DNA of 21,424 nucleotides from a virus. Below are positions 1,794 through 19,139 of the stretch, piece by piece; within the stretch, counting starts at the first letter, position 1, and each line of letters opens with the position of its first letter. Below the pieces are notes generated by a model. It was not told the origin of the DNA. It saw nothing but the letters and a program-made list of their open reading frames with translations, and did not search any database. The stretch is taken from positions 1 to 21,424 of IMG/VR virus record IMGVR_UViG_3300034198_014091; one strand, written 5' to 3'. Made by a program: the position numbers and the translations under genes.

Positions 1794-1822
1794 TCTATAC
1801 CCACTTACGGGGTATGTGTCAA
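1794..1822 (-). promoter_or_regulatory. Sigma-70-like promoter for scaffold and capsid genes
   Basis: On the minus strand the -35 is TTGACA (complement of 1817-1822), then a 17-bp spacer, then a -10 of TATAGA (complement of 1794-1799). The TGA inside TTGACA is also the stop codon of the upstream 124-residue gene. It would boost the small gene, scaffold and capsid, which are needed in large amounts. The -10 is only a 4/6 match. Confidence 0.55.
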
Positions 1823-2193
1823 GAAAGATTTTCCAACTTGTACAACGTCGAATCCATCTGGGCCACAATTTCGTCGATCAGGTTCTGCAGCTCAGAGTGA
1901 TCGCACATCTCCATGCGGTTCTCATCGATGTACCGGCGCAGGCTGCGGATCATCATGACCGCGTCGCCCTCAGCCTTGTACGGCAGCTCAGGGTAGTCCT
2001 GAATGCCGTAGCGGCCTTGGTACGCCTCAGCCAACTTGTCCGCGCGGTCGATGATGTTTTCGTAGAACTCGTTGAGCGCCACATGCTGCGCGTAGTTGCG
2101 TGTGCGCAGGTGCAGAACGTGCGCGTTGGTACGCGCGTGGAACAGCTGCATGATCAGGCCAGCTACGCTGGGTGAGGCGGTGATACCCTTCAT
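1819..2193 (-). CDS. Phage helical protein, DUF5856-like
   Basis: 124 residues. The start ATG at 2193 lies 2 bases after the portal stop codon, and its GGAG ribosome site is inside the last portal codons, so the two are translationally coupled. The segment HVLHLRTRNYAQHVALNEFYENIIDRADKLAEAYQGRYG (about residues 24-62) has regularly spaced His, Glu and Tyr in long helices. That recalls Dps/ferritin-like bundles and a phage family I remember as DUF5856. No enzymatic role can be claimed. Its position between portal and scaffold suggests a head or DNA-protection role, or a conserved passenger. The family name is from memory and needs a profile search. Confidence 0.75.
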   Translation of the reverse strand: MKGITASPSVAGLIMQLFHARTNAHVLHLRTRNYAQHVALNEFYENIIDRADKLAEAYQGRYGIQDYPELPYKAEGDAVMMIRSLRRYIDENRMEMCDHSELQNLIDEIVAQMDSTLYKLENLS

Positions 2194-6518: not shown

Positions 6519-6546
6519 TTGCCATGCCCATGCCATGCGCTATAAT
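6519..6546 (+). promoter_or_regulatory. Early sigma-70 promoter for gene 6608
   Basis: TTGCCA (6519-6524), a 16-bp spacer and a perfect TATAAT (6541-6546). The promoter contains a direct repeat TGCCATGC (6520 and 6531) that could be bound by a regulator. Transcription would start near 6553, leaving about 55 bases before the ATG. Confidence 0.75.
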
Positions 6547-11437: not shown

Positions 11438-12038
11438 AGATTTTGAACACGAAGAGACGTACACGCACAAGAACGGAAAGACGTACAACGTGCGCTGGTA
11501 CACCGACTACGACATGGGCTCGCCCCTCGAGTGGGAGGACACGCACGGCGTCACCGAGTTTATGGACTGGAACCCCACCAACGAGGAACAGCTCGAGCAG
11601 CACATCGTTGACGAAGAGCCCGAGCTCGAGGAGGAGACACGCCTGCGTCTCATGCGTCCGCTGACAGCGGGTCAGACATGGCGTCATCCGGGTCTGTACT
11701 ACGACTTCATGAAGTCGTGCGAGCTTGCCCGCACCGAGTGGGGCATTGCACCCGAGCGCGTGGTGGAGGTGGTCGAGGCTGACTACAAATACATCAAGTC
11801 GTGGTATGACCTTGACTGGCACTGGGTGAGAATTGGCGTGGCTCCGATCGATGAGGACGGCGAGATCATGGAAGATCAGCGCGACTACCTCGGTGGCATC
11901 GAGTCAACTATCATGCTTTCCCGCGATGCTGACGACGTCGCATACCGCGAGGAGCTCATCGACGACAGGATCACCGAGGTCGAGTACACACTGCGCAGGG
12001 AGCTTCACAAGGGTCAGCTGGAGCTGTCCTTCGCTTGA
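11430..12038 (+). CDS. Unknown acidic protein, 202 residues
   Basis: Not recognised. ATG at 11430 with AGGAGAAG 6 bases before. Very acidic and rich in Trp/Tyr: KTYNVRWYTDYDMGSPLEWEDTHGVTEFMDWNPTNEEQLEQHIVDEEPELEEETRL, later YKYIKSWYDLDWHWVRIGVAPIDEDGEIMEDQRDYLGG. Such strongly acidic phage early proteins sometimes act as DNA mimics or host-protein inhibitors, but nothing here proves that. Its stop codon TGA forms part of the -35 box of the promoter at 12035. Confidence 0.8.
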   Translation: MSKDFEHEETYTHKNGKTYNVRWYTDYDMGSPLEWEDTHGVTEFMDWNPTNEEQLEQHIVDEEPELEEETRLRLMRPLTAGQTWRHPGLYYDFMKSCELARTEWGIAPERVVEVVEADYKYIKSWYDLDWHWVRIGVAPIDEDGEIMEDQRDYLGGIESTIMLSRDADDVAYREELIDDRITEVEYTLRRELHKGQLELSFA

Positions 12039-12063
12039 CACGTGGCGGGTAACCTGCTACAAT
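12035..12063 (+). promoter_or_regulatory. Second strong sigma-70 promoter of the rightward operon
   Basis: TTGACA (12035-12040), 17-bp spacer, TACAAT (12058-12063), with TGC before it (extended -10). The core GCGGGTAACCTG of the spacer matches the promoter at 8853. The start site near 12070 leaves a leader of about 93 bases holding a palindrome and a conserved ribosome site. Confidence 0.88.
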
Positions 12064-12109: not shown

Positions 12110-12125
12110 TAATCCCACGGGATTA
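12110..12125. repeat. 16-bp palindrome, copy 6
   Basis: TAATCCCACGGGATTA, about 40 bases into the transcript from 12035. Confidence 0.9.
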
Positions 12126-12162: not shown

Positions 12163-12519
12163 ATGGATCAATCACAACTGCTTTCTATTGTCGGTGGCAT
12201 TTACGACAAACTCGTCGCTGATGTCTCGGACGCTGTCATCATCAAGCTCAAGGCTGAGAATAGCGCGGCTATCGCACTGGAGCCTGACAACTTGCGTGGT
12301 CACCTGATCGACCTGCTTGCGGGTGATGACGGTGTGCGTGACACCATCCGCGACCTCATCGACGTCAAGATTGACGACATCGACCTCGACAACTACGGGC
12401 AGTTCAACAGCCTCGAGTCGCGCGTGGAAGAGCTCGAGAGCAACGACAGCTCCGCCATCGACGCTGACAACGACACCTTCGCAGACGCTGTGTGCGAAGT
12501 TATCCGCAACAAAATCTAA
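12163..12519 (+). CDS. Unknown acidic protein, 118 residues
   Basis: Not recognised. ATG at 12163, first gene behind the promoter at 12035. Residues 1-45 are helical (SQLLSIVGGIYDKLVADVSDAVIIKLKAENSAAIA). The middle is extremely Asp-rich (DLLAGDDGVRDTIRDLIDVKIDDIDLDNY), followed by a short coiled coil (FNSLESRVEELESNDSS) and a helix to the end (ADNDTFADAVCEVIRNKI). A second in-frame ATG at 12139 lies inside the leader and is unlikely. Acidic, single-domain; function unknown. Confidence 0.8.
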   Translation: MDQSQLLSIVGGIYDKLVADVSDAVIIKLKAENSAAIALEPDNLRGHLIDLLAGDDGVRDTIRDLIDVKIDDIDLDNYGQFNSLESRVEELESNDSSAIDADNDTFADAVCEVIRNKI

Positions 12520-12699: not shown

Positions 12700-12715
12700 T
12701 AATCCCATGGAATTA
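12700..12715. repeat. 16-bp palindrome, copy 7 (CATGGAATTA variant)
   Basis: TAATCCCATGGAATTA followed at once by AAGGAG, exactly as at 9698, then the ATG at 12727. Confidence 0.9.
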
Positions 12716-12726
12716 AGGAGTAAATC

Positions 12727-13608
12727 ATGAGTATCAAAAACAACGCCCTGCTTGTGTCCCTCACGGTCAACAAGCCCCAGATGACGCAGAAGGACATCAA
12801 GGCGACCATCTCTGCCGAGGTTGCCAACAACGCCCACGGCGCGGGTCAGTACCGCAAAGACCTGTACCCCAAGGCGCTGGTGCAACCCATCCTGCAGGTC
12901 GAGTCGTCAGCCCGTGCGTACATCGAGAGCACCACCTACCCGTGGTCACGTGGCGAGAGCCTGTTGCCCACCGCCCGCTTCATGGAGTTCGCCGAGCGCA
13001 TTGGCAAGTTCCAGCTGGAGTTCGACCAGTGCGTCACTGCGTTCCTCAACAACTGGAGCAACGTGATGACGCAGGCACAGCAACGTCAAGGCGAGCTGTT
13101 CGACCCGAGCGTGTACCCTGACATGTCTGACCTCAAGGCTGACTTCCGCTTCCGTGTGCACTACCGCCCCGTCACCGACATGGGTGACTTCCGTGTGTCC
13201 ATGCAGGAAGAAGAGCTTGACTCACTGCGCGAGCAAGTCGAGGCTGCTACCAAGGAAGCCATGAACAACATGCTGCGTGCCCCGCTCGAGCGACTGCGTG
13301 AGGCTGTGCAACGTCTGCACGAGGTGTCTGGCAAGACCGACCGCGAGGTCGTCAACAAGAAGACTGGCTCGACTGAGGTGCGACCGCCCATCTTCCGCGA
13401 CTCTGTGGTTGACAACCTGATGGAAGAGATCAAGCTGTTGCATGACTTCGCTGACGTGTTGCCCTCTGACGTGCTGGCTGTAGCCAAAGACATTGCTGAC
13501 GCGACACCGCACCCGCAGTCCATGCGTGACGACCCTGACGTTCGCAAGAGTGTCAATGTGTCCACAACTGCGTTGCTTGCATCGATCGATGCCATGCTGG
13601 AAGATTAA
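12727..13608 (+). CDS. DUF3150-like partner of the MoxR/VWA pair
   Basis: 293 residues; ATG at 12727 with AAGGAG 8 bases upstream. The order LLVSLTVNKPQMTQKD, NNAHGAGQYRKDLYPK, STTYPWSRGESLLPTARFMEF, LNNWSNVMTQAQQRQGELFDPSVYPD and FRFRVHYRPVTDMGDFRV follows a phage protein family that I recall as DUF3150 or a close relative. The second half is a long helical region (EELDSLREQVEAATKEAMNNML...). In phages this family tends to sit with a MoxR-type ATPase and a VWA protein, and both are found here (14503 and 15855). It may be a scaffold or substrate adaptor for that ATPase (inference). No catalytic motif is seen. Confidence 0.8.
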   Translation: MSIKNNALLVSLTVNKPQMTQKDIKATISAEVANNAHGAGQYRKDLYPKALVQPILQVESSARAYIESTTYPWSRGESLLPTARFMEFAERIGKFQLEFDQCVTAFLNNWSNVMTQAQQRQGELFDPSVYPDMSDLKADFRFRVHYRPVTDMGDFRVSMQEEELDSLREQVEAATKEAMNNMLRAPLERLREAVQRLHEVSGKTDREVVNKKTGSTEVRPPIFRDSVVDNLMEEIKLLHDFADVLPSDVLAVAKDIADATPHPQSMRDDPDVRKSVNVSTTALLASIDAMLED

Positions 13609-13618
13609 CCCCCCAACC

Positions 13619-13634
13619 AACTTACTAACTGGAG
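13619..13634 (+). promoter_or_regulatory. Conserved leader/ribosome site, gene 13641
   Basis: AACTTACTAACTGGAG, then AATCAC and the ATG at 13641. Confidence 0.6.
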
Positions 13635-13640
13635 AATCAC

Positions 13641-13991
13641 ATGATCGACATCAAAAAAGAAACCATCGCCAAGTACGTGCGCATCCTCGCCAACCTTGGC
13701 TGTCAGTTCAAAGTCATCGAGGCTGACGGCACCGAGCACGGCGAGCTTGTCGTGGCGAAGAACAAGCCGTCAAAGCCGCGCGTGTCTGTGCTTGCGCAGG
13801 TGGACTACAAGACACCCTTGCTGGCTATGCAACCCGGTGACGTCATCAGCTTGTCCGCGACTGCCGATATGCCACTGGAGTCACTGCGCTCTTGCGTCTC
13901 GAGCTTCGCCGCGCATACGTTCGGCACGGGTTCAGTGACGACAACGGTTGACCGCAACGACAACACCGTGGTCATCCTGCGCGTGGAGTAA
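13641..13991 (+). CDS. Unknown protein, 116 residues
   Basis: Not recognised. ATG at 13641 with GGAG 6 bases upstream and the conserved leader. A short N-terminal helix (KKETIAKYVRILANLGCQFKVIEADG) is followed by a beta-rich stretch (HGELVVAKN; PRVSVLAQVDYKTPLLAMQPGDVISLSA; GSVTTTVDRNDNTVVILRVE). The many small beta segments suggest a compact barrel or sandwich. It sits inside the DUF3150/MoxR/VWA segment. Confidence 0.8.
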   Translation: MIDIKKETIAKYVRILANLGCQFKVIEADGTEHGELVVAKNKPSKPRVSVLAQVDYKTPLLAMQPGDVISLSATADMPLESLRSCVSSFAAHTFGTGSVTTTVDRNDNTVVILRVE

Positions 13992-13994
13992 CAC

Positions 13995-14225
13995 ATGACG
14001 GACAAGCACATCCCCCGTGCACTCGTCACCTTGGGCGGCACACATGTTGTGTTGCCTGTCGAGGATGCTGTGGCTGCGTTCACTTTACTATGTAAGGGAG
14101 ACGTGGTAAATTACGACTGGTCATCGAAGACATACAAGCGAGCCGAGGCAAACAGCAGCGATTACCCTTCGCTCAAGATGTTCTCACTTGCTGACTATGC
14201 CGCGCTGACTCTTAACACTGACTAA
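13995..14225 (+). CDS. Unknown small protein, 76 residues
   Basis: Not recognised. ATG at 13995, 3 bases after the previous stop, with GTGGAG in the end of that gene as ribosome site. Sequence features: ALVTLGGTHVVLPVEDAVAAFTLLCKGDVVNYDWSSKTYKR, then an aromatic tail SLKMFSLADYAALTLNTD. Probably an alpha/beta fold. Confidence 0.75.
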   Translation: MTDKHIPRALVTLGGTHVVLPVEDAVAAFTLLCKGDVVNYDWSSKTYKRAEANSSDYPSLKMFSLADYAALTLNTD

Positions 14226-14239
14226 CTTTGGAGTACCAA

Positions 14240-14434
14240 ATGGAATTCACATTCAAGCTCAACGAAGAGCAACTCAACGTCATCATCAAGCACCTCGACA
14301 TGGGTGCGCACAAGGAAGTGCGAGGTGTGCTGGACTACCTGATCGGCAATGCCAACGAGCAAGCTGCCAAGGCACGCGAGTCCATGATGCCCGCGCCTAC
14401 CCCCGATGGTGCACCCTCTTCGACCAACCCCTAA
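14240..14434 (+). CDS. Unknown small protein ending in the palindrome, 64 residues
   Basis: The start ATG at 14240 has TTGGAG (14228-14233) upstream; a TTG start at 14228 would consume that site. The first 50 residues are amphipathic helix (FKLNEEQLNVIIKHLDMGAHKEVRGVLDYLIGNANEQAAKARES) and the tail is Pro-rich (MMPAPTPDGAPSSTNP). The stop TAA is the first three bases of palindrome copy 8, so the tail may have been trimmed or created when the palindrome arrived. Confidence 0.75.
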   Translation: MEFTFKLNEEQLNVIIKHLDMGAHKEVRGVLDYLIGNANEQAAKARESMMPAPTPDGAPSSTNP

Positions 14435-14447
14435 TCCCATGGGATTA
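14432..14447. repeat. 16-bp palindrome, copy 8 (perfect dyad, supplies a stop codon)
   Basis: TAATCCCATGGGATTA, an exact palindrome. Its TAA ends the gene at 14240. A second dyad follows: ACCGGTG (14453-14459) and CACCGGT (14466-14472). Confidence 0.92.
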
Positions 14448-14476
14448 ACCGTCACCGGTGCGGTTCACCGGTACCC

Positions 14477-14495
14477 AACTTGTTTACTTAAAGGA
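14477..14495 (+). promoter_or_regulatory. Conserved leader/ribosome site, gene 14503
   Basis: AACTTGTTTACTTAAAGGA, then AATCAAA and the ATG at 14503. Confidence 0.65.
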
Positions 14496-14502
14496 AATCA
14501 AA

Positions 14503-15510
14503 ATGCGTATCGCACACGTTACCCCTATCCTCGTCAAGCGTTACCTCAATGACAACACTCGTCGTCGCACCACGTTCTTGCGTGGCCCGTCAGGTATCGG
14601 CAAGTCCGAGGTTGTGTTCCAGACTTCACAGCTCTTGGCCGAGCACGTTCCTAACTGGAAGGGTGTCATCGACCTGCGCCTCGCACAGATGGAGCCGACC
14701 GACCTGCGTGGCATCCCGCACGTTGTCGAGGGCCGCACACGCTGGGCACGTCCTGACTTCCTGCCTGCTGACGGTGCTGGCATTCTGTTCCTTGACGAGA
14801 TCACGTCAGCTCCGCCCTCTGTGCAGGCTGCCGCATACCAGCTGTGCCTGACGCCCGAGGACTTCGGCATCCCTGCCGAGTGGATGGTGATCGCCGCTGG
14901 CAACCGCAAGACCGACCGAGGTGTCACGTTCAACCTCGCCGCGCCGTTGCAGAACCGCATGTGCGACATCGACGTGTCCACCACCATCGACGACTTCGTC
15001 AACCATGCCATTACCCGTGGCATCAAGCCGGAGATTCTGTCGCTGTTGCAAGACCGCCCTGACTTGTTGCACAAGTTCGAGCCCACCGGTGACATCAAGC
15101 CGTTCCCCAGCCCCCGCTCGTGGTTCGCTGTGTCGCACACTCTCGAGCTCGACCTGCCTGTGCAAGACCGTGTCGAGCTTATCAAGGGTGACGTTGGCGA
15201 GGAAGCTGCCATGATTCTCGAGACACACCTGCGTGTCTGGGAGACGATGCCGCGCATCGAAGACATCTTGCAAGGCAAAGACGTGCCTGTGCCCAAAGAG
15301 CTCAACGTGCGGTACTGCGTGGCCATGGGTCTTGCGACTCGCCTCGACGCCAACAACTTCGACAAGGCATGGAAGTTCCTCGAGAAGATGCCCGGTGACG
15401 TGCAGACGCTGACCATCAAGCTGGCACACAAGCGCGACAAGACCATCACTCGCAGCCCTGCATTCAGCAAGTGGGCGATGGCTAACCAAGCTGCCTTCTC
15501 GATGCGCTGA
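14503..15510 (+). CDS. MoxR/CobS-like AAA+ ATPase
   Basis: 335 residues from ATG 14503 (leader AAAGGA upstream). Walker A GPSGIGKS (28-35); Walker B ILFLDEI (94-100, D98-E99); sensor 1 VIAAGNR (N134); arginine finger in PLQNRM (R152); sensor 2 near PSPRSW (R205). The insertion 'LRLAQMEPTDLRGIPHV' after strand 2 is typical of MoxR-family ATPases. MoxR proteins use ATP to remodel partner complexes, usually with a VWA protein that carries a metal site, here the 15855 product. T4-like cyanophages carry a comparable 'cobS' gene. The target in this phage is unknown. All ATPase motifs are intact. Confidence 0.93.
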   Translation: MRIAHVTPILVKRYLNDNTRRRTTFLRGPSGIGKSEVVFQTSQLLAEHVPNWKGVIDLRLAQMEPTDLRGIPHVVEGRTRWARPDFLPADGAGILFLDEITSAPPSVQAAAYQLCLTPEDFGIPAEWMVIAAGNRKTDRGVTFNLAAPLQNRMCDIDVSTTIDDFVNHAITRGIKPEILSLLQDRPDLLHKFEPTGDIKPFPSPRSWFAVSHTLELDLPVQDRVELIKGDVGEEAAMILETHLRVWETMPRIEDILQGKDVPVPKELNVRYCVAMGLATRLDANNFDKAWKFLEKMPGDVQTLTIKLAHKRDKTITRSPAFSKWAMANQAAFSMR

Positions 15511-15511
15511 T

Positions 15512-15808
15512 ATGCCGCCAGCTGTAAAACATCCTTACACTGGGCAACCTGCCTTGGTGTTCGAGCGTTACGGTGCGGTGTGGAACGCGCATGTTGAGCG
15601 ACACGCTTCGTATGCGCGGGGCCGACCGTACGTTGTGCGGGAACCCTTCGCAACGATACGGCCTGCGTACAACGATGCAGTTATGTTGGACGAGACTTGT
15701 GGATGGGTTGTCACGCGCAACTCGTTCGACGAGATCAGATCGTTTAACACAGTCGAGGAAGCGAAGATATACGTGAAGTCACTGTTCGCCCTCGAATCGA
15801 CTTCTTAA
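15512..15808 (+). CDS. Unknown protein between the ATPase and VWA genes, 98 residues
   Basis: Not recognised. ATG at 15512, 1 base after the ATPase stop, without a clear ribosome site, so probably translated by coupling. Sequence: YTGQPALVFERYGAVWNAHVERHASYARGRPYVVREPFATIRPAYNDAVMLDETCGWVVTRNSFDEIRSFNTVEEAKIYVKSL, a small alpha/beta protein. Its TAA stop is provided by palindrome copy 9. Its place inside the MoxR-VWA pair suggests a linked role, but nothing in the sequence shows one. Confidence 0.75.
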   Translation: MPPAVKHPYTGQPALVFERYGAVWNAHVERHASYARGRPYVVREPFATIRPAYNDAVMLDETCGWVVTRNSFDEIRSFNTVEEAKIYVKSLFALESTS

Positions 15809-15821
15809 TCCCACGGGATTA
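15806..15821. repeat. 16-bp palindrome, copy 9 (supplies a stop codon)
   Basis: TAATCCCACGGGATTA; its TAA ends the 15512 gene. It lies 33 bases before the next start, with the conserved leader between. Confidence 0.92.
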
Positions 15822-15832
15822 GAATACTGATT

Positions 15833-15848
15833 AACTTGTTTACTGGAG
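15833..15848 (+). promoter_or_regulatory. Conserved leader/ribosome site, gene 15855
   Basis: AACTTGTTTACTGGAG, then AAAATC and the ATG at 15855. It lacks the internal CTTA repeat of the full form. Confidence 0.65.
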
Positions 15849-15854
15849 AAAATC

Positions 15855-17000
15855 ATGAGTTCATTGCAAAACCGCATCGACCTAGCGTACAGCAAGCTCG
15901 GCCTGCGCGAAGCATTCATCGCTGCGGTGATGACGCGCGTCAAGCGCGAGGTGTCTGACAAGGTGTCCACCGCTGGCACCAACGGCTCGTGGGTGCGGTT
16001 CAACCCCACGTGGTGCGAGCCCCTGACTGACGAAGAGCTGTTCGGTCTCGTGTTGCACGAGGCGTGTCACGTTGTGCTGATGCACATGTGGCGGCGCGAG
16101 AGCCGCGACCCACGTCTGTGGAACTACGCCAACGATGCCATCATCAACGCGTACATCAAGTCGCGCGGCTGGCAGCTGCCCAAGGGCGGCGTCAACCTCA
16201 GCTGGGTCAAGGAAGAGCACAGCTCCGAGTACGTGTACAACAAGCTCAAAGAGCAACAGCAGCAACAGGGCGGCAAGGGCGGCGGCAGTGGCGACGGCGA
16301 CGAGGAAGATGACGGCATGGGCGGTGGCTTCGATGGCCATGGTGACCTCGAGGATGCACAAGACGAGGCGACCCGTGTTGACATGGAAGCGACCATCGTT
16401 GCAGCTGCCAAGATGGCCAAGGACTGCGGTCAAGGCTCATCGCTGATCGACCGTGTGCTCGAGCATGTCGGCGAGTCCAAGGTGCGTTGGCAAGATGTCA
16501 CGCGCTCCATGCTGACCGAGTCGGCAGCTGCGGACTATTCGTACCTGCGACCATCGCGCCGCTTCATCGGCTCTGGCCTGTACCTGCCCTCGCTGCGCAC
16601 TGATGCGCTCGGCGGCTTGGCCATCGGCTTCGACACATCAGGCTCCATGGGCCCCAAGGAATGCAACCAGATCGGTGCAGAGCTGCAAGCCATCGTTGAC
16701 GACCTCAACCCTGCCTTCGTCGAGGTTGTGTATTGCGACTACCATGTCACACACTCGGAGCGATTCGAGCGTGACGAGCCGCTCAAGCTGCATCCCAAGG
16801 GTGGCGGTGGCACGCGGTTCCAGCCTGTGTTCGAGCACTTTGCCGAGACGGGCGAGCAATACTGCGGCATGATCTTTTTCACCGACATGGAAGGCAACCT
16901 GCACGAGTGCGTCGAGCCAAGCCATCCTGTCATCTGGGCCGACATCGGCCATAGCCACCCTGACGCGCCGTTCGGTACGCGCGTCGAGGTACCACTGTGA
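15855..17000 (+). CDS. Fused zinc metallopeptidase-like and VWA-like protein (DUF2201 type)
   Basis: 381 residues. The N-terminal domain has the zinc-binding motif HEACH (68-72) in LFGLVLHEACHVVLMHMWR, followed by WNYANDAIIN (D94 as likely third ligand). A low-complexity linker (135-170: five Gln, Gly/Asp/Glu-rich) leads to a C-terminal VWA domain with a MIDAS metal site: DTSGSM (D260, S262, S264), T320 in GGGGTRF, and FFTDME (D344). This is the layout of DUF2201_N plus the VWA-like domain, the usual partner of MoxR ATPases. It probably forms a chaperone or protease-like complex with the 14503 ATPase in the cytoplasm. Both metal sites look intact. Confidence 0.92.
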   Translation: MSSLQNRIDLAYSKLGLREAFIAAVMTRVKREVSDKVSTAGTNGSWVRFNPTWCEPLTDEELFGLVLHEACHVVLMHMWRRESRDPRLWNYANDAIINAYIKSRGWQLPKGGVNLSWVKEEHSSEYVYNKLKEQQQQQGGKGGGSGDGDEEDDGMGGGFDGHGDLEDAQDEATRVDMEATIVAAAKMAKDCGQGSSLIDRVLEHVGESKVRWQDVTRSMLTESAAADYSYLRPSRRFIGSGLYLPSLRTDALGGLAIGFDTSGSMGPKECNQIGAELQAIVDDLNPAFVEVVYCDYHVTHSERFERDEPLKLHPKGGGGTRFQPVFEHFAETGEQYCGMIFFTDMEGNLHECVEPSHPVIWADIGHSHPDAPFGTRVEVPL

Positions 17001-17010
17001 GTACAACAAA

Positions 17011-17292
17011 ATGAATGCAAACTTTCACAAAGAACTGGTGACCCGACTGACCCGCATGGAGACCAAGCTCGTGCGGGGCTTCGAGGAGCTGGGCGTCAAC
17101 ATCGACAAAGACAACGAGTGGATCACTGTTGACGACGAGGCAAGGGTCGTGTACATCTCAACGATCGGTCGTTCCATGACCGTGATGCTGAGTGACATGG
17201 CGCGGCTGGGCGCTACCCAGTATGGCAAGGAGTACGACATCGTCCACCGTGGCGATCTCATTGGCACCGTCATCTTCCGCAAAATCTTGTGA
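17011..17292 (+). CDS. Unknown protein, 93 residues
   Basis: Not recognised. ATG at 17011, 10 bases after the VWA stop; the ribosome site is weak (GTGAG). Helical N-terminus (FHKELVTRLTRMETKLVRGFEELGVNID), then beta-rich (EWITVDDEARVVYISTIGRSMTVMLSDMARLG... YDIVHRGDLIGTVIFRKIL). Composition and tight packing support a real gene. Confidence 0.75.
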   Translation: MNANFHKELVTRLTRMETKLVRGFEELGVNIDKDNEWITVDDEARVVYISTIGRSMTVMLSDMARLGATQYGKEYDIVHRGDLIGTVIFRKIL

Positions 17293-17301
17293 GGAACTAT
17301 C

Positions 17302-17604
17302 ATGAGCAACGAATTCAAAGGCGTGAAATTCAGCACCATGGCGATGCCGTGGATTCCTGTCGGGCACCCTGACTATCGCTGGACAAACCACACAGACACA
17401 GATGTAACTAGAACTTGGAGCAAGTATGGCTGGAAACCCATGGACGTATCGCGACCCATCACCGACGGAGCAGTCAACGGAAAGGTCGGGACACCCGCTC
17501 AAGAAGTGCAACAGCTGCGAAAAGGCAGCCGAGCAACTCGGCGGCGTGCAGATAAAGTCAAAATGGATTTGCGCACGCTGCTGGATCAAGCACATCAACC
17601 GTAA
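17302..17604 (+). CDS. Unknown protein overlapping a zinc-ribbon gene
   Basis: 100 codons if read to its stop. ATG at 17302 with GAGGA upstream. Residues 1-42 (FKGVKFSTMAMPWIPVGHPDYRWTNHTDTDVTRTWSKYGWKP) look like a genuine small phage protein, 'DVT-TW-KYGW-P' being a pattern of short early proteins. From residue 42 on it shares its DNA with the zinc-ribbon gene at 17426 in another frame. The tail (QLRKGSRATRRRADKVKM) looks like a by-product of that frame. Either the two overlap by 179 bases, or the real product is shorter through a frame change. Confidence 0.6.
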   Translation: MSNEFKGVKFSTMAMPWIPVGHPDYRWTNHTDTDVTRTWSKYGWKPMDVSRPITDGAVNGKVGTPAQEVQQLRKGSRATRRRADKVKMDLRTLLDQAHQP

Positions 17605-17608: not shown

Positions 17609-17638
17609 AAAAGCCCCAGAGCTTGTGGCTCCGGGGCT
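17607..17638 (-). terminator. Terminator of the leftward two-gene island
   Basis: AGCCCC and GGGGCT arms plus GAGC/GCTC give an 11-position stem (17612-17622 with 17628-17638) with one mismatch. In the minus direction the stem is followed by TTTTTT (complement of 17607-17612). On the plus strand no T-run follows, though the hairpin may also slow rightward transcription from 17608. Confidence 0.85.
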
Positions 17639-17644
17639 CAAGGT

Positions 17645-18758: not shown

Positions 18759-19139
18759 ATGAGTCAATTTGTTTTAACACCGCGCCAGCAGGATGTTCTT
18801 GAGGAACTCTGCAAGGGGGGATCAAACAAAGAGATCGCCCGCCGACTTGAAATGGCAGAGGCAACTGTGAAGTTGCATTTGACTGAAATTTTTAAGACAA
18901 TGGGTGTTCGTAACCGATCAGAGGCAATCATCAGGGCGAGTGACATACCAGTCACAAGGCCAGAACTTAATAACTTGACCGATCAAGCGATTCTTGAAGA
19001 GTACACCAACGTGTCGTTCGATGTGAGTGACATGTCGTGGTCTCAGCGGGTGATCTGTCTTGGCAGGGCGATCGTCACACGGATGAAAAAAGAAAATGAG
19101 GAAGAAGTCAAAGTACAAGCCAAGGGCGATACTAGCTAA
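18759..19139 (+). CDS. LuxR/GerE-type HTH transcription regulator
   Basis: 126 residues. Residues 5-60 are a canonical LuxR-type DNA-binding domain: LTPRQQDVLEELCKGGSNKEIARRLEMAEATVKLHLTEIFKTMGVRNRSEAI. There is no receiver or ligand domain; the C-terminal 65 residues are an unrelated helical tail (AILEEYTNVSFDVSDMSWSQRVICLGRAIVTRMKKENEEE) that could mediate dimer contacts. It would bind DNA as a dimer. The repeats upstream of its own gene and the 16-bp palindromes are both candidate sites; neither is proven. It may time the switch between gene blocks. The end overlaps the next gene by 44 bases. Confidence 0.92.
   Translation: MSQFVLTPRQQDVLEELCKGGSNKEIARRLEMAEATVKLHLTEIFKTMGVRNRSEAIIRASDIPVTRPELNNLTDQAILEEYTNVSFDVSDMSWSQRVICLGRAIVTRMKKENEEEVKVQAKGDTS

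Follow-up and report, generated by a model that had tools for sequence, protein, structure and literature searches.

A virus fragment carries three genes whose products, I think it reasonably probable, form a three-component MoxR-class AAA+ machine that remodels or processes other proteins, is made along with the replication gene products, and acts before the virion is assembled. Two of the components, a MoxR ATPase and a protein that fuses a metallopeptidase to a VWA domain, are already known as a pair. What is new is that a third protein belongs to the machine. The window analyzed is the whole 21,424 nucleotides of IMG/VR record IMGVR_UViG_3300034198_014091, which is itself a 21 kb fragment. 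The open reading frame list bears out the gene positions given between 12727 and 17000 by a sequence-only reading of this DNA.

The genes lie on the + strand along with those for DNA polymerase, helicase, and exonuclease, opposite the genes for portal, terminase, capsid, and tail fibre, which occupy the - strand in a 60 kb relative. At the head of the cassette is a predicted sigma70-like promoter, TTGACA-17-TACAAT (12035..12063, +), with 11 of 12 positions matched and TG ahead of the second hexamer, and it recurs upstream in most relatives. The window contains four such sites matching at 11/12 or better on the + strand and none on the - strand, where order-1 resamples lead one to expect 0.05 per strand. 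There is also a palindrome, TAATCCC-NN-GGGATTA, found in 11 copies against 0.05 expected. One copy, TAATCCCACGGGATTA, lies in the leader of small gene 12163 (12110..12125), and a second copy of it lies 5' of vwa (15806..15821). Another, TAATCCCATGGAATTA, with one mismatch, ends 11 nt ahead of the start of gene 12727 (12700..12715), and TAATCCCATGGGATTA is found 5' of moxR (14432..14447). The arrangement is shared by relatives: the palindrome precedes gene 12163 in 31/31 of them, gene 12727 in 38/47, moxR in 47/54, and vwa in 54/68, while the small embedded genes are almost never preceded by it. A LuxR/GerE-type protein encoded at 18759-19139 is a candidate to bind the palindrome.

The identity of the ATPase is clear. 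Gene moxR (14503..15510, +; 335 aa) was said by the earlier reading to bear all the MoxR/AAA+ motifs, and so it does. Its product matches Pfam AAA_5 (E 2.3e-9, 37.8 bits against a cut-off of 22) and, over residues 21-332, PHROG 1297 'ATPase' (E 1e-71), the family of N4 gp24. Across 22 phage and plasmid sequences there is no variation at G31, G33, and K34 of Walker A (GPSGIGKS, residues 28-35, 14584..14607, +), at D98 of Walker B (ILFLDE, residues 94-99, 14782..14799, +), at N134 (sensor 1), at R152 (arginine finger), or at R205 in the sensor 2 region. Membership in the MoxR class is judged in part by an adjoining VWA partner gene, and vwa lies 3' of moxR in 57/57 relatives with enough flanking sequence to tell.

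The partner, vwa (15855..17000, +; 381 aa), belongs to the family of N4 gp25, PHROG 1314 (E 2e-82, residues 3-380). It combines a DUF2201_N metallopeptidase (Pfam, E 1e-39) with a DUF2201 VWA domain (E 1e-19), confirming the earlier view that one protein joins a HEACH zinc site (residues 68-72, 16056..16070, +) to a DTSGSM MIDAS site (residues 260-265, 16632..16649, +). Both sites are intact. H68-E69-x-x-H72, H77, D94, and N98 do not vary across 23 sequences or across another set of 29, and the same holds for the complete MIDAS, D260-x-S262-x-S264 with T320 and D344. The VWA domain continues up to the C-terminus at residue 381, with no effector domain fused to it. The VWA end of the predicted model matches VWA folds (Z 13), and its top Foldseek matches are the NorQD VWA and the midasin MIDAS domain, at E about 0.02; against PDB, all Foldseek E-values for this model and for that of the 12727 product lie above 0.001. 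The N-terminal part is weakly similar in sequence to minigluzincins (MJ1213 selecase, E 0.003) and, as a predicted model, to minigluzincin structures (E 0.07-0.15), and no third zinc ligand could be made out. In most of the RefSeq phage records examined, this second gene of the pair is labeled 'HNH endonuclease'.

Then there is the third gene, 12727 (12727..13608, +; 293 aa), whose mostly helical product had been called DUF3150-like. It falls short of the Pfam gathering cut-off for PF11348 (E 0.021, 14.6 bits, where 24.9 is needed), and the highest score within the aligned family, 22.1 bits, is too low as well. Profile-profile comparison with canonical DUF3150 nonetheless gives a probability of 94.5% (hhalign, E 8e-8, residues 1-184), so the likeness stands, formal membership does not, and 'DUF3150-related' is the proper description. 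In BFVD its best match, 71% identical, is a protein that UniProt labels 'DUF3150'. The Pfam model was below cut-off or silent in 60 kb relatives and in one Burkholderiales genome, and absence as judged by that model therefore says little. The median dN/dS of the gene among relatives is 0.19. Compared with PDB folds, the model of the protein finds only helical bundles (OspC, E 0.05; best Z 10.1), which I read as uninformative. Neither Pfam, NCBIfam, nor PADLOC offers a function for it or for the small genes of the cassette, and DUF3150 is not named in the literature searched.

The evidence that this protein is part of the machine comes from the company it keeps. Counting only those relatives and contigs with sufficient flanks, gene 12727 lies 5' of moxR in 36/36, and cyanophages of the MinM2 type carry the same trio. 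Plasmids and contigs of Burkholderiales have it as an operon in 33 of 34 loci, the remaining locus being truncated. For the third protein, the plasmid operon shows 23-30% identity. Its order is MoxR-DUF3150-VWA, without small genes, whereas in the phage it is DUF3150-MoxR-VWA with small genes, and the plasmid operon is flanked by PRTRC and type IV secretion genes. The operon is annotated, but no description of it was found in the literature. A more distant trio is found on IncA plasmid pRA1 and IncT plasmid Rts1: a CbbQ-type AAA+ protein, canonical DUF3150, and a CobT-like VWA protein with HExxH, which in pRA1 lies ahead of the VWA domain. The three roles are the same, but the AAA+ and VWA proteins are of other lineages than the phage's, so DUF3150 is not tied to a single lineage of MoxR-type AAA+/VWA pairs. 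These genes are interleaved with or adjoin bet/recT and exo, and plasmid forms in general adjoin recT/bet, exo and SSB or PRTRC genes. Counted by homologs of the pRA1 protein, DUF3150 occurs in over a thousand plasmid records. For a deletion of the trio region in Rts1 (gene numbers inferred from order), no conjugation defect is listed, a point against the machine proposed here, though the vwa region of Rts1 contains an IS2.

The earlier reading took 12727 for a third conserved partner and the three genes for a functional cassette, a claim that would be in trouble if the neighbors did not co-occur elsewhere. They do: the phage clade, cyanophages of the MinM2 type, and plasmids of bacteria all have the three large genes together, and both claims come through. 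It is not so that every phage with the pair has the third gene. No DUF3150-like neighbor was detected by hhalign in N4, phage G, CRP-7, phiFa, RHph_TM3, or the 38%-identity group, a screen whose single-sequence templates reduce its power, whereas in the phages considered here the gene is invariably present. The only such gene in that screen of binary-pair phages and MinM2 was MinM2's own. The absence of the third subunit from many phages that run the pair counts against the explanation I favor. In trees of MoxR or VWA, the carriers of three genes do not form one clade, but resolution is poor.

How does the cassette compare with known systems? The pair described in jumbo phages by Iyer et al. 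2021 (PMC7824862) and N4 gp24/gp25, core genes with middle transcripts (PMC4193335), are of the same families, with the same metallopeptidase-VWA fusion and gene order. NorQ/NorD, CbbQ/CbbO, and RavA/ViaA also consist of a MoxR AAA+ ring and a VWA partner, but NorD, CbbO, and ViaA lack this type of metallopeptidase domain, no DUF3150 protein accompanies them, and their clients are respiratory enzymes or Rubisco. The ternary VMAP/iSTAND conflict systems (Kaur et al. 2020, PMC7159879) share the three-gene plan and the order third component-MoxR-VWA. However, no VMAP or STAND domain is reported for 12727, and the phage VWA protein carries no effector. With E values as high as 1 admitted, Pfam showed no VMAP-C or inactive STAND domain in the third component, the presence of the VMAP-C profile in the libraries being unconfirmed. 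PADLOC matches no component of the cassette, and kinship with known conflict systems finds no support.

I propose that MoxR forms an ATP-driven ring, as its family would lead one to expect, and that the metallopeptidase-VWA protein serves as adaptor, its VWA/MIDAS end linking the ring to a client that the N-terminal zincin-like domain, its site intact and invariant, may cut or hold. Because of its strict co-occurrence, the DUF3150-related protein would be a third subunit proper to the machine, its likeliest task being to recognize the client or to act as a bridge. The machine would be made alongside the replication genes, ahead of virion assembly, and its client may be a protein complex important for DNA replication, recombination, or takeover of the host.

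The earlier reading held that a role in phage is not established, and the literature found agrees, although there is a published proposal that the two-gene form serves virion assembly (PMC7824862). According to that proposal, the pair is a chaperone-protease of morphogenesis whose substrates, both remodeled and cleaved, are structural proteins, with a precedent in the tails of Acidianus two-tailed virus. Structural genes surround the pair in cyanophage S-TIM5, where it adjoins Hsp20, and the record of the PA5oct ATPase bears an ESI-MS/MS note; both fit a virion-related role and count against an early-acting machine. In N4-like roseophages, what may be a second structural module lies close to gp24/25 (PMC4193335). 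But the cassette here shares a strand with replication genes and opposes structural genes, N4 gp24/25 is middle rather than late (PMC4193335), and a strictly linked third protein common to plasmids, which form no virions, speaks against confining the role to assembly. I consider assembly unlikely, though to be taken seriously. The early position of the cassette and its occurrence on phages and conjugative plasmids, adjoining recombination genes, would also suit a counter-defense or takeover protease that disables some complex of the host, for instance a nuclease or defense assembly. Against this are the lack of a PADLOC match and the unusually strong conservation of MoxR and VWA among relatives (median identities of 91% and 82%, median dN/dS of 0.08 and 0.13). 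Conflict proteins mostly diversify quickly. Such a protease is decidedly unlikely.

Insertion of a metal or cofactor into a phage or host enzyme, in the manner of NorQD or CobST, is the best-studied role of MoxR/VWA proteins (PMC9976466), and CobT and CbbQ_C domains are found in the plasmid cousins. Yet no metalloenzyme gene adjoins the cassette, and the pair is found in phages with very different gene sets, leaving this role very improbable. Finally, the genes might adjoin merely through kinship, since within a clade much of the gene order could be inherited. It is too much to ask of coincidence that the same trio be found in unrelated plasmids, bacteria, and cyanophages, and I give chance hardly any credence.

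If the three-component machine is real, then its strict linkage offers a concrete complex to purify, the uncharacterized DUF3150 family gains its first testable assignment, and light may fall on a core pair of N4-like phages that has no assigned function. A speculative extension, to my mind something of a long shot, is that the trio serves mobile elements in general as a machine for stripping off or cleaving proteins that are bound to their DNA in early replication or recombination. If so, it would be an ATP-driven counterpart of SprT/Spartan-type proteases, common to phages and conjugative plasmids.

A further lead comes from Mycobacterium phage Dylan, where a BFVD match to 12727, S5YZA3 (E 4.5e-4), agrees in length with gp94, which adjoins a classical AAA gene; sequence profiles did not confirm the relationship.

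The four embedded small genes, offered earlier as adaptors or substrates, divide evenly. Genes 13995 (13995..14225, +; 76 aa) and 15512, between moxR and vwa (15512..15808, +; 98 aa), are kept in 28/36 and 57/63 relatives and keep their candidacy. Genes 13641 (13641..13991, +; 116 aa) and 14240 (14240..14434, +; 64 aa, within a frame opening at TTG 14228) are present in only 13/36 and 14/36, which makes them unlikely core parts. Leader gene 12163 (12163..12519, +; its frame opens at TTG 12139, with ATG at 12163) is kept in 27/36 close relatives. The last gene of the run, 17302 (17302..17604, +), is found in 42/71 and is followed by a hairpin of 12 pairs (17611..17639) whose T-run is on the - strand side, so that the hairpin may work for the opposing gene or for both genes. 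Between vwa and 17302 lies gene 17011 (17011..17292, +), which the earlier reading did not list, and it is kept in 71/71 relatives.

The pairing of a MoxR ATPase with a metallopeptidase-VWA protein is already known; the new part of the cassette is the third gene, at 12727-13608. Among those relatives that reach far enough, it lies upstream of moxR (14503-15510) in 36 of 36, vwa (15855-17000) lies downstream of moxR in 57 of 57, and the small gene at 17011 follows vwa in 71 of 71. The third gene and moxR are separated by about 90 bp in eight relatives without the intervening small genes, and cyanophage MinM2 has MoxR, DUF3150 and VWA genes all inside 4.5 kb. Profile comparison around the pair found no counterpart of the third gene in N4, phage G, CRP-7, phiFa or RHph_TM3, nor at 32 loci of a 38%-identity group, so there exist both two-gene and three-gene forms. 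In trees, whose deep branches are weak, the three-gene carriers do not form one clade. Neither the strict three-part form nor its link to plasmids was found in the literature searched, which leaves out most subscription journals.

The third protein is termed DUF3150-related here, not a DUF3150 member. Its match to Pfam DUF3150 falls under the cut-off, and 8 of 18 members of its family match at E <= 0.05. The family profile aligns with canonical DUF3150 (94.5% probability), and the predicted viral structure that matches best belongs to a protein, 71% identical, with the UniProt name DUF3150. The gp94 of Mycobacterium phage Dylan (gp94-gp95, locus L188:27933-30525) agrees in length with the BFVD structural hit for the third subunit, and its gene adjoins that of a classical AAA ATPase; sequence profiles gave no confirmation of homology to the third subunit.

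The MoxR protein has hits to AAA_5 and PHROG 1297 and, by tblastn, in 768 phage records; for the metallopeptidase-VWA protein the hits are to DUF2201_N, DUF2201 and PHROG 1314, and in 418 phage records. The zinc motif, the entire MIDAS and the main AAA+ motifs are invariant in alignments that took in homologues from N4-like phages, phage G, Thermus phage phiFa, cyanophage and plasmids. H77, D94 and N98 of the VWA protein are also invariant. A profile search of PDB with MoxR puts midasin at the top (E 1e-38), CbbQ and NorQ lower in the list. The VWA protein model has a clear VWA domain (residues 251-381, Z 13), and its N-terminal part weakly resembles minigluzincins of the selecase/jannalysin type. 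Plasmid MoxR proteins from loci L144, L145 and L147 have D-D in place of the usual Walker B D-E. RefSeq phage records label the PHROG 1314 family 'HNH endonuclease', for example N4 gp25 (L153:11164-12306) and phage G gp576 (L141:7992-9170); Pfam finds no HNH domain in the window's protein, and the name is likely a widely copied annotation error.

I propose, by analogy with NorQD, where an AAA+ ring is plugged by one VWA protein whose MIDAS binds the client (PMC9976466), that the VWA protein would serve as an adaptor powered by the MoxR ring. The putative zincin domain of this adaptor would either cleave the client or keep hold of it, and client recognition or bridging would fall to the DUF3150-related protein. 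To what end? Iyer et al. (PMC7824862) proposed virion assembly with processing as the role of the pair. The N4 genes 24 and 25 are middle genes (PMC4193335), and in the window the cassette and the replication genes run on one strand, with the structural genes on the other. What counts against virion assembly as a general role is the presence of the trio on plasmids, and that role is less favoured on this account. The third protein is found on 40 plasmids, mostly of Burkholderiales (tblastn); in all five plasmids examined, the three genes stand in a single same-strand run, and all three occur in 33 of 34 Burkholderiales contigs, the remaining locus being cut by the contig end. On IncA plasmid pRA1, a canonical DUF3150 protein (298 bits), with homologues in 1,128 plasmid records, adjoins an HExxH-bearing VWA protein, and bet, exo and a CbbQ-type AAA+ gene lie directly upstream. 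The gene order on IncT plasmid Rts1 is SSB, RecT, exonuclease, MoxR, DUF3150, VWA. A role in plasmid transfer is also less favoured, because the trio, judging from gene order, is not listed among the 32 conjugation genes from a deletion study of every Rts1 gene except repA; this argues against transfer with the caveat that the VWA gene adjoining MoxR and DUF3150 on Rts1 has an IS2 element in its region (L202:10480-13642).

The window, an IMG/VR virus record of 21,424 bp, is a fragment. On the left, portal and terminase (PHROG 332 and 2) are encoded by the - strand; on the right, the + strand carries small genes, the cassette and the beginning of a DNA polymerase gene. Among isolates, Rhizobium phage RHph_TM3_14A has the closest portal protein (35% identity), and HMO-2011-type podoviruses come next. 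In the structural arm, the product of 1819-2193 (-) has hits to DUF5856 (E 1e-22) and to a PHROG labelled 'starvation-inducible transcriptional regulator', a name that looks doubtful. Near-consensus sigma70 promoters lie on the + strand at 6519, 7326, 8853 and 12035, one heading the cassette run; that there are four on this strand versus none on the - strand of the window suggests that host polymerase transcribes the early genes.

A 16-bp palindrome, TAATCCC-NN-GGGATTA, its centre nearly always purine-pyrimidine, has 11 copies in the window when up to 2 mismatches are allowed (7305, 8204, 8943, 9698, 10887, 12110, 12700, 14432, 15806, 17645 and 21307), versus 0.05 expected. It turns up in at least 119 viral contig stretches. 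A relative of 60.7 kb has 13 copies, every one of them within its first 18 kb, in the half that contains the cassette and early genes. Counting palindromes that start within 130 nt of a start codon, one precedes 12727 in 38 of 47 relatives, moxR in 47 of 54 and vwa in 54 of 68, and hardly ever a small gene (13641, 1/14; 13995, 0/24; 14240, 0/8; 15512, 0/22). The three large genes thus have a putative control element in common, which may be an operator, a processing site or a leader element. A candidate reader of the palindrome is the 126-aa protein of 18759-19139, which has a LuxR/GerE helix-turn-helix (Pfam E 4.9e-18).

The sequence-only reading took the four embedded small genes as possible adaptors or substrates. 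Two of them, 13641 and 14240, are patchy among relatives and unlikely to belong to the core. The idea survives for 13995 and 15512, widespread and fast-diverging at 39-42% identity, which together with 17011 may encode adaptors or substrates.
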